Shown here: positions 4,068 to 9,020 of the stretch, piece after piece
Layout: every line of letters begins with the position of its first letter
Position numbering within the stretch: the first letter of the stretch is position 1
Assembly: GCA_943787745.1 (NCBI GenBank)
Contig: CALSNJ010000002.1
Span: 518,904 to 582,903 of the forward strand
Length of the DNA: 64,000 bases
DNA from: an uncultured Alphaproteobacteria bacterium
GTDB taxonomy: Bacteria > Pseudomonadota > Alphaproteobacteria > UBA6615
Direction: 5' to 3'
The notes under the pieces: generated by a model
Told to the model about the DNA's origin: nothing
Database searches by the model: none
Seen by the model: only the letters and a program-made list of their open reading frames with translations
Translations under genes and position numbers: made by a program

Positions 4068-4519
4068 TTTGGCTCGATCGTCGCAACCGCAAACAGCACC
4101 TTATAGGCCTCACACCACACGGCGACACTACGCCAGTCTGACAAGTCGATGTCCTTGGGAACGACGTAGTTCTGGTTCCCCGTCTGCCCCTTGAGGTCTC
4201 CCAGTGAGACGAATGCTGCGGTCACGTCTTCGGGAAACAGGGGGTCTGGGTCTTTTGCGAGATAAACGTAGAGATCCGGACCAGGTTTGACCTTTAGATT
4301 TTCCAATCGGAGGATTGTTCGTCCATCTGGGGCGACCAGTATTTTGAGTTGACCTGATCCTGTGTGGGCGGGATCGCCGTCCCGGAATTCACCAGTCGCA
4401 ATTTGCTTCGCCCCTTTGGGGAAGGCTTCGGAGATATGCCGGTCACTCGACTGTGCCAGGGCAGGTGTTGTTGCCCACAACAGAAGTGCAGCAACGAAAG
4501 CGAATTTAAGGCGACACAT
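4064..4519 (-). CDS. Secreted DM13-domain protein
   Basis: The 151-residue product has an N-terminal signal peptide (LKFAFVAALLLWATTPALAQ, cleavage after ALA about residue 22). It is followed by one DM13 domain: a GEFRDGD start, LRLENLKVKPGPDLYVYL in the middle and a C-terminal SVAVWCEAYKVLFAVA strand containing the conserved Cys. DM13 domains are predicted electron-transfer or redox domains of exported proteins. It is the last gene of a tight minus-strand operon, one base after the enoyl-reductase-like gene. Confidence 0.85.
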   Translation of the reverse strand: MCRLKFAFVAALLLWATTPALAQSSDRHISEAFPKGAKQIATGEFRDGDPAHTGSGQLKILVAPDGRTILRLENLKVKPGPDLYVYLAKDPDPLFPEDVTAAFVSLGDLKGQTGNQNYVVPKDIDLSDWRSVAVWCEAYKVLFAVATIEPN

Positions 4520-5931: not shown

Positions 5932-6849
5932 TTGACCCGTCCTGAAAACCGCAGACCCGTATGGCTGTCCCATAACCTTCAGGGCATGGGCTGGATGCTT
6001 GTCACAACGGTGCTCATCGTCACGATGCACACGATGATCCGTCACCTTGCCGAAGACGGCCTGCACCCGTTTGAAATCGGCTTTTTCCGAACTTTCTTCG
6101 GCGCCCCTGTTGTTGTGGTCTTGTTGCTCAAATATGGCTGGGGGATTCTTAAAACCGATCAGCTCAAGGTGCATGGCATTCGTTCGTTTGGCCATGTGGC
6201 CGCGATGATGCTGTTCTTTCTCGGTCTGTCCATGACCCCGCTGGCGACAGCCAACGCGCTCGCATTTACCGCCCCCTTATTTGCCACCGTGCTGGCGGTG
6301 ATTGCACTGGGTGAGACCATTCGATGGCGTCGTTGGGCCGCGCTGATATTCGGATTTGCGGGCACGCTGGTCATTATCCGTCCCGGTTTCGTGGATGTGG
6401 GGACGGGACCAATACTTGTTCTGGTGTCGTCAGCGATTTGGGCGGTGATTCTGATCGTCATCAAGACACTGGGCAAACGTGACAGTACCCCAACCATCGT
6501 TACCTATATGGTTCTGTTGATGTCTCCGATCGCACTTGTGCCTGCGCTGTTTGTCTGGGTTTGGCCAACATGGGAACAACTCGGGATCCTGCTCGTAATG
6601 GGCGTGATGGGGACCACAGCACATCTGACCTTGACGCAGGCTTTGCGGCTTGGCGATGCGGCAGTTGTGATGCCCATGGATTTCTTCAAATTAATTTGGG
6701 CCGCCGCATTCGGTGTTCTGATTTTTGGCGAATTTCCAACTCTTTACACATGGATCGGCGGTTTCATGATATTTGCCAGTGCAACTTATATCGCTCTCCG
6801 TGAACGTGCGTTGGCGCGCACACGTGCCGCAGCTAACAAGGATGTTTGA
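5932..6849 (+). CDS. EamA/DMT-family transporter
   Basis: This is a drug/metabolite transporter with about ten hydrophobic segments in two EamA repeats. The first repeat has HPFEIGFFRTFFGAP after TM1 and the second ends with FGEFPTLYTWIGGFMIF. The start is uncertain: TTG at 5932 has GGAG 7 nt upstream and leaves a normal short N-terminus before TM1, whereas ATG at 5986 starts inside TM1. The stop overlaps the next start by one base (TGATG), so it is translationally coupled to the type III polyketide synthase. Export of the polyketide product is a plausible inference only. Confidence 0.85.
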   Translation: MTRPENRRPVWLSHNLQGMGWMLVTTVLIVTMHTMIRHLAEDGLHPFEIGFFRTFFGAPVVVVLLLKYGWGILKTDQLKVHGIRSFGHVAAMMLFFLGLSMTPLATANALAFTAPLFATVLAVIALGETIRWRRWAALIFGFAGTLVIIRPGFVDVGTGPILVLVSSAIWAVILIVIKTLGKRDSTPTIVTYMVLLMSPIALVPALFVWVWPTWEQLGILLVMGVMGTTAHLTLTQALRLGDAAVVMPMDFFKLIWAAAFGVLIFGEFPTLYTWIGGFMIFASATYIALRERALARTRAAANKDV

Positions 6850-7895
6850 TGTTACCCAAAGCTCGTATTGGCGCGGTTGCGACTGCGTTTCCGCCTTATG
6901 TACTCGACCAGAACGAGGTCGTTGAACGCTCCCGTGAAATGTTCGCACCCGATGTGCCGGGCTTTGAACGCTTTACCGACGCATATAGGAATGCTGCGAT
7001 TGAAACGCGCCATTCCTGTGTGCCCATAGAATGGTATTCACAGAAGCATCCTTTCTCTGAACGCAACGACCTGTTCATCGAGAACGCTGTGGAATTGCTT
7101 GCCGAGGTGTCTGAGAAACTGTTTGCCCAAGCCGGGATCACTGCCGGTGATGTTGATGGCCTTGTTGTTGTCTCGACAACAGGAATCGCAACGCCAAGCC
7201 TTGATGCATTGTTGCTGGAGAAATTGCCGTTTCGCCGCGACGTTCAGCGATTGCCGATCTTCGGACTTGGTTGCGGCGGCGGTGTGACCGGGTTGGCCCG
7301 CGCCGCCCAATTGGCGATGACGCGACCTGACAGCTGCGTGTTGTTTCTGGTGGTCGAGCTGTGTGGCCTGACGTTTCGGGTCAACGACACATCCAAGAGC
7401 AATATTATCGCAACGGCACTCTTTGGTGATGGCGCGGCAGGGGCACTGCTGGGCTGCAACATGGACGGACCGGCTGTGAAAGCATGGGGTGAACATACCT
7501 GGGACGATTCCCTCGACGTGATGGGCTGGGAAATAGGGGACGACGGTTTGGGCGTGCTCTTTTCGCGGGATATCCCGCATCTGGTGCGCACGAAGCTCGG
7601 GGAGCCCGCGAAGGCGTTCCTGGCCGGGCAGGGGCTGAAGGTCGGTGATATTCGGCGCCATGCCTGTCACCCCGGAGGTGCGAAAGTTCTTGATGCGCTC
7701 GAGCAGCTCTATGAGTTGCCCGAGGGCGGGCTGAAAACCGCCCGTGATGTGTTGCGCAACAATGGAAATATGTCCGCGGCAACTGCGATGTTTGTTCTGG
7801 AGGAAACCCTGAAAGATAACGAGCCCGGGCACTGGCTGATGTCGGCGCTGGGGCCCGGCTTCACCGCAACCTTCGCGTTGCTGGAGGCGTCATGA
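6849..7895 (+). CDS. Type III polyketide synthase (chalcone/stilbene synthase family)
   Basis: The 348-residue product is a chalcone-synthase-like thiolase-fold enzyme. The nucleophilic Cys lies in FGLGCGGGVTGL (~140), the catalytic His in RHACHPGGAKVL, and the Asn in NNGNMSAATAMF. The C-terminal SALGPGFTATFALLE matches the family's GFGPG loop. Such enzymes condense malonyl-CoA extenders on an acyl-CoA starter, giving alkylpyrones, alkylresorcinols or related phenolics. ATG 6849 overlaps the transporter stop; its own stop overlaps the ICMT-like start (ATGA). The PKS-ICMT pairing resembles the bpsA-bpsB pair of Bacillus and srsA-srsB of Streptomyces. Confidence 0.92.
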   Translation: MLPKARIGAVATAFPPYVLDQNEVVERSREMFAPDVPGFERFTDAYRNAAIETRHSCVPIEWYSQKHPFSERNDLFIENAVELLAEVSEKLFAQAGITAGDVDGLVVVSTTGIATPSLDALLLEKLPFRRDVQRLPIFGLGCGGGVTGLARAAQLAMTRPDSCVLFLVVELCGLTFRVNDTSKSNIIATALFGDGAAGALLGCNMDGPAVKAWGEHTWDDSLDVMGWEIGDDGLGVLFSRDIPHLVRTKLGEPAKAFLAGQGLKVGDIRRHACHPGGAKVLDALEQLYELPEGGLKTARDVLRNNGNMSAATAMFVLEETLKDNEPGHWLMSALGPGFTATFALLEAS

Positions 7896-8389
7896 GCATC
7901 TGGTATTTGCTGGTTGCACTGATTGTTGTTCAGCGCCTCATTGAACTGGTAATCGCACGGATCAACACCAAACGTCTGATGGCGGAAGGCGCGGTTGAAC
8001 ATGGTGCGGGGCACTATCCTGTTATCGTTGCCCTGCACACGGCATGGCTTGTCAGTCTGGTCGTTTTTATTTCCGCTGACGCGATCATCAATCCCATCTT
8101 GCTGGTGGTATTCATCGCGCTCCAGTTGGGGCGTGTCTGGGTGCTGACATCACTGGGGCGCTACTGGACCACGCGTGTGATCACGGTGCCCGGGAAGCCA
8201 CTGGTTAAACGCGGCCCATTCCGGATCGTACGACACCCCAATTACCTGATTGTGGAAGCCGAACTGATTGTCGTGCCGCTGATCGCGGGCGCTTGGGAGC
8301 TGGCCGTTGTGTTCGGTGTTGCAAATGCGCTTGTTCTGGCCTGGCGTATCCGGGTCGAGGAACAGGCGCTTTCACCCCGACGCGACTAA
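7892..8389 (+). CDS. Isoprenylcysteine carboxyl methyltransferase (ICMT)-family membrane protein
   Basis: The 165-residue membrane protein has about four hydrophobic segments and the ICMT/PEMT hallmark GPFRIVRHPNYLIVEAEL (~108-125), where the RHPNY part contacts S-adenosylmethionine. It starts within the stop of the type III polyketide synthase (ATGA). In Bacillus BpsB and Streptomyces SrsB, homologues beside a type III PKS O-methylate alkylpyrones or alkylresorcinols. By that precedent this gene probably methylates the PKS product; that is inference. Confidence 0.88.
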   Translation: MSIWYLLVALIVVQRLIELVIARINTKRLMAEGAVEHGAGHYPVIVALHTAWLVSLVVFISADAIINPILLVVFIALQLGRVWVLTSLGRYWTTRVITVPGKPLVKRGPFRIVRHPNYLIVEAELIVVPLIAGAWELAVVFGVANALVLAWRIRVEEQALSPRRD

Positions 8390-8519: not shown

Positions 8520-9020
8520 ATGAGAGATGCCATGTCTGGCCCGCTTTCGCGTCGCGCAACCGGGATTGACCGGCTGTTGGGTCTGGTTCTCTTTGCATCA
8601 CTCGTCGCCCTGATTGCAGGGCTTATTCTGCCTGCAATCACGATCCGCTCGATGTTTCTTGCGACGGATTTTTCTCTTCTCGAAAGCGTCTGGAAGTTTC
8701 TCGAAGGAGGGGACTGGTTTCTGTTTGTGATTACGTTCCTGTTCTCCGTCGCCTTTCCGATCGTGAAAATTCTGACAGGCTTGGCACTCTGGTTCTTTCT
8801 GGATTCCACAGGTGCTTACGCCCGCCCGGTAATTGGCTGGCTTGCTGCAATGTCAAAATGGTCGATGCTTGATGTGTTCGTTATCGCGCTGATCGTTCTT
8901 GTCGCGGATGGACGTTTATTGTCGAGCGCAGACATCCAGATCGGCGCGATTGTCTTCTCGTGTGCGGTTTTGGTTTCAACCTGGGCGACGCGCCGCCTCA
9001 GTGGTTTGGCTGGAAACTAG
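8520..9020 (+). CDS. Paraquat-inducible protein A (PqiA)-domain membrane protein
   Basis: The 166-residue product carries one PqiA-type membrane domain with four hydrophobic segments and the signature KWSMLDVFVIALIV near residue 120. Classical PqiA has two such domains and Cys motifs; this is a single-domain version without them. ATG 8520 is chosen because GGAG lies 9 nt upstream; a TTG at 8487 would add an unsupported tail. No pqiB/MCE-domain partner lies beside it. The final 4 bases overlap the stop of the convergent lipoprotein gene. Role probably in the cell envelope. Confidence 0.82.
   Translation: MRDAMSGPLSRRATGIDRLLGLVLFASLVALIAGLILPAITIRSMFLATDFSLLESVWKFLEGGDWFLFVITFLFSVAFPIVKILTGLALWFFLDSTGAYARPVIGWLAAMSKWSMLDVFVIALIVLVADGRLLSSADIQIGAIVFSCAVLVSTWATRRLSGLAGN

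Follow-up and report, generated by a model that had tools for sequence, protein, structure and literature searches.

A probable BpsA-BpsB-like polyketide synthase and methyltransferase gene pair beside a separable EamA transporter gene in an uncultured alphaproteobacterium

Results

The type III polyketide synthase (PKS) gene of an uncultured alphaproteobacterium and the ICMT-family methyltransferase gene that follows it most probably constitute a functional unit working like BpsA-BpsB, with the upstream EamA transporter gene being a neighbour that the pair can dispense with; we assign this reading a probability of roughly 0.78. Judging from the sequence, the pair probably makes a methylated alkylpyrone or alkylresorcinol lipid. 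The case for a BpsAB-like lipid is well supported, because of the clade to which the PKS belongs, the conserved adjacency of PKS and ICMT genes and the finding of PKS11 as the best solved relative. PKS-ICMT pairs are a standard, already known bacterial unit, of which the window (the whole stretch of 64,000 nt that was analysed) holds another example.

Gene organization

The relevant features of the window are the following.

5932..6849, + strand: EamA/DMT-family transporter gene (PF00892, 107 bits)
6838..6848, + strand: Shine-Dalgarno-like AAGGA before the PKS start (read from the sequence)
6849..7895, + strand: type III PKS, 348 aa (PF00195, 77.5 bits; PF02797, 49 bits)
7882..7891, + strand: Shine-Dalgarno-like GGAGG before the ICMT start (read from the sequence)
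7892..8389, + strand: ICMT-family membrane methyltransferase, 165 aa (PF04140, 92.8 bits)

The original prediction described three co-directional genes overlapping by 1 and 4 nt, an intact Cys-His-Asn triad in the PKS and an RHPNY motif in the ICMT protein, all of which were borne out. The EamA stop and the PKS ATG both lie at 6849 (1 nt overlap), and the ICMT ATG is at 7892, with the PKS stop at 7895 (4 nt overlap); the start of EamA is ambiguous (TTG 5878, TTG 5932 or ATG 5986). Scanning for promoters and terminators produced a signal no better than that of shuffles. There is one match each to the PKS and ICMT families in the source genome, and the pair is surrounded by genes for EamA, PqiA-like, YdhR-like and zinc dehydrogenase proteins. 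The PqiA-like gene (8520-9020 in the window), encoding a stand-alone single-domain membrane protein 130 nt 3' of the ICMT gene and on the same strand, is retained across close relatives.

Residues and phylogeny of the PKS

Alignment placed the catalytic residues in the motifs GLGCGGG (Cys), HPGG (His) and NNGNMS (Asn). The window PKS has a Thr at the position of THNS Cys106 and a Cys at that of PKS18 Cys205; the features of THNS/RppA enzymes are absent, as there is no second active-site Cys (Cys106) and the protein is placed outside the RppA clade. Among enzymes of solved structure, the best match was M. tuberculosis PKS11 at 191 bits, well ahead of S. coelicolor THNS at 121. PKS11 is an alkylpyrone synthase with 34% identity to the window PKS; it differs in using methylmalonyl-CoA as extender and in its genomic context. 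The switch between pyrone and resorcinol formation is ArsB-Trp281/ArsC-Gly284; ArsC (3VS8) was absent from the PDB matches listed. The Trp of an MGW motif is invariant in the aligned ICMT-paired PKSs and in PKS11, and may have a part in the choice between pyrone and resorcinol cyclisation.

The maximum-likelihood tree that we built has 65 rows, made up of the window PKS, loci from related genomes, named plasmid records and four enzymes of solved structure; BpsA, SrsA, ArsB and ArsC sequences were not included, and the Lysinibacillus PKS served as a proxy for BpsA. The window PKS shares one branch (99/92) with PKS11, CylI and all ICMT-paired PKSs. RppA/THNS, a PhlD-annotated PKS and PKS18 lie outside it, as do PKSs whose partner is a class I methyltransferase (together with an FAD oxidoreductase in Deinococcus, Mesorhizobium and Sphingobium). 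The window PKS groups with the Bacillota ICMT-paired PKS, represented by the Lysinibacillus proxy, in this larger clade and also on an inner branch (94/73). A PKS tree had been proposed as a check on the original prediction, and its outcome agrees with it, with the window PKS beside enzymes for alkylpyrones (PKS11) and alkylresorcinols (CylI) and apart from RppA/THNS.

From these sequence comparisons, the window PKS is predicted to be a long-chain acyl-CoA alkylpyrone/alkylresorcinol synthase. A non-lipid product, built on a short or aromatic starter (a RePKS-like heptaketide pyrone or a THN-like compound) and methylated by the ICMT-family enzyme, seems quite improbable: the clade alone does not fix starter specificity, because RePKS, itself a clade member, can also turn acetyl-CoA into a heptaketide in vitro (PMC6274091), but the clade holds the long-chain enzymes PKS11 and CylI, Thr occupies the equivalent of THNS Cys106, and an integral membrane methyltransferase as partner suits a lipid substrate.

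Conservation of the PKS-ICMT pair

Of 289 alphaproteobacterial species, sampled evenly, 56 had a clade PKS in their genome, and in 54 of these the ICMT gene was directly downstream; one exception was a break at a contig end and the other had ~600 nt between the two genes. Such an ICMT occurred without the PKS in only three of the 289 genomes (Fisher p about 1e-56 for co-occurrence). The order of the two genes is therefore kept beyond chance, and this adjacency, together with the grouping with the Lysinibacillus proxy, upholds the likeness to BpsA-BpsB that was originally proposed. With the pair in about a fifth of the sampled species, the lipid may be a widespread membrane component.

Among the fetched loci, the ICMT gene of clade members starts at most ~15 nt downstream of the PKS and on the same strand, with the R. 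etli p42d locus as sole exception, and none of the 12 PKSs outside the clade is followed by an ICMT gene. In RefSeq, the pair is annotated for Azospirillum, Sulfitobacter, Nitrobacter, Alloyangia, Rhizobium BG4, Sphingomonas and, within the Bacillota, Lysinibacillus; Sulfitobacter indolifex and Azospirillum lipoferum are culturable carriers of it. Elsewhere, the pair adjoins genes for amidase, Sel1, fatty acid desaturase, histidine kinase or MFS proteins. The desaturase gene (L062 of genome G027, 6508-7530) lies 25 nt downstream of the pair, which may mean that the starter or the chain is unsaturated. A block of Bacillota type (metG, fosB, rsgA, PKS-ICMT, rpmG) is found in the record CP031730, which is labelled as a Stenotrophomonas rhizophila plasmid, and the PKS-ICMT part of the block is nearly identical to that of Lysinibacillus fusiformis pMGMM7; the record is probably mislabelled or contaminated.

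Comparison with characterised systems

The bpsA-bpsB genes of B. subtilis lead to triketide pyrones and minor alkylresorcinols (PMC5686519). Like this system, whose products are triketide alkylpyrones and their methyl ethers, the window pair consists of two genes, PKS then ICMT; unlike it, the window pair is alphaproteobacterial and has EamA upstream. The comparison was made through the Lysinibacillus pair, which has the BpsAB layout, falls in the same tree clade and shows 40% (PKS) and 37% (ICMT) identity to the window proteins. The phenolic lipid operon SrsA-SrsB-SrsC of Streptomyces griseus also has a type III PKS followed by a methyltransferase of the ICMT family, to which SrsB-type enzymes belong (PMC6669644), although no gene for an FAD-dependent monooxygenase (SrsC) accompanies the window pair.

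The PKS of R. etli p42d belongs to the same clade and is 44% identical to the window PKS, but lacks an ICMT partner. We infer that it is very probably the characterised RePKS, an enzyme that converts C4-C18 acyl-CoAs into tri- and tetraketide pyrones (PMC6274091). If so, it is the only clade enzyme characterised in the literature searched.

Predicted methyltransferase and pathway

The ICMT protein contains RHPNY plus a C-terminal R..EE, and RHPNY and the C-terminal EE are common to the ICMTs of the window, the Lysinibacillus pair and the Streptomyces pair. Its score against NF040696, the NCBIfam equivalog for protein isoprenylcysteine O-methyltransferase, is 24.8 bits, below the 160-bit cut-off. 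We predict, from its family, that it acts as the O-methyltransferase of the PKS product.

By analogy with the family, the likely chemistry would start with a long-chain fatty acyl-CoA priming the PKS Cys, followed by the addition of two or three malonyl-CoA, or possibly methylmalonyl-CoA, units by decarboxylative condensation. Lactonisation would then give an alkylpyrone, and aldol closure might yield an alkylresorcinol as well. The ICMT-family enzyme, in the membrane and with SAM, would methylate a ring hydroxyl (or carboxyl), so that the end product would be a membrane-resident methylated phenolic or pyrone lipid. The 4 nt overlap may bring about translational coupling, keeping PKS and ICMT in step, and the pair would sit inside the EamA transcription unit in the family of the window.

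EamA as a neighbour of the pair

The three genes had been proposed to make and export a methylated polyketide lipid through a built-in transporter. The tree, the adjacency of the pair and PKS11 speak for the making of such a lipid; the exporter part was not supported, since EamA and the pair are found one without the other. EamA is upstream of the pair only in the window's own family, where the order EamA-PKS-ICMT recurs in about 12 loci and a tight junction between EamA and PKS is confined to close relatives. The gene neighbourhood in this family runs through malonyl-CoA decarboxylase, SDR, a small protein, DM13, zinc dehydrogenase, YdhR-like and EamA and, beyond EamA and the pair, PqiA-like, CMD and a second EamA, some of these genes being absent from more distant genera.

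Four genomes of the same family (G022, G006, G014 and G018) contain an intact EamA in the same gene order without PKS-ICMT, several of the relatives being metagenome-assembled genomes. In G022 (L111, C60), 23 residues of the PKS N-terminus (61% identical, ~4428-4496) survive just after the intact EamA, and the next gene is the one lying beyond ICMT in sister genomes; conservation of EamA is 77%, as compared with 74-78% for the sisters. The remnant beside an intact EamA of sister-like divergence indicates that G022 lost the pair and kept EamA.

It is thus unlikely that the three genes form a dedicated cassette in which EamA exports or flips the methylated lipid. Their shared direction, the 1 nt overlap and the recurrent order in the family would fit such a role, and transporter coupling is not unique to the window, as a DHA2 MFS gene overlaps the ICMT gene of a like pair in Rhizobium sp. 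BG4; however, EamA persists without the pair in the four genomes named above, is as conserved in G022 as in its sisters, is missing beside the pair in most clade members, and belongs to a set of about 11 EamA paralogues in the source genome. From its retention without the pair, its absence beside most pairs and its many paralogues, EamA is best read as a co-directional neighbour, a general DMT transporter with no dedicated role in the pair. No relative of solved structure was found for it by sequence. It is probably co-transcribed with the pair, for which it perhaps supplies the promoter, and it might play a secondary part in export. A 1 nt overlap can mislead, since here a tightly overlapping transporter gene proved separable.

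It is also unlikely that a pre-existing EamA was recruited in the window's family as flippase or exporter of a methylated alkylpyrone lipid, in one of several independent pairings with unrelated transporters (EamA; the DHA2 MFS of BG4). In the BG4 plasmid pRPC2 (L127, 4001-7114), the genes for PKS, ICMT and the DHA2 MFS transporter overlap in that order.

The genes for malonyl-CoA decarboxylase, SDR, DM13, YdhR-like and zinc dehydrogenase proteins were considered as parts of the pathway and rejected, being in place in genomes without the PKS. The malonyl-CoA decarboxylase gene (1489-2922 in the window), also present in such genomes, lies near a PKS predicted to use malonyl-CoA.
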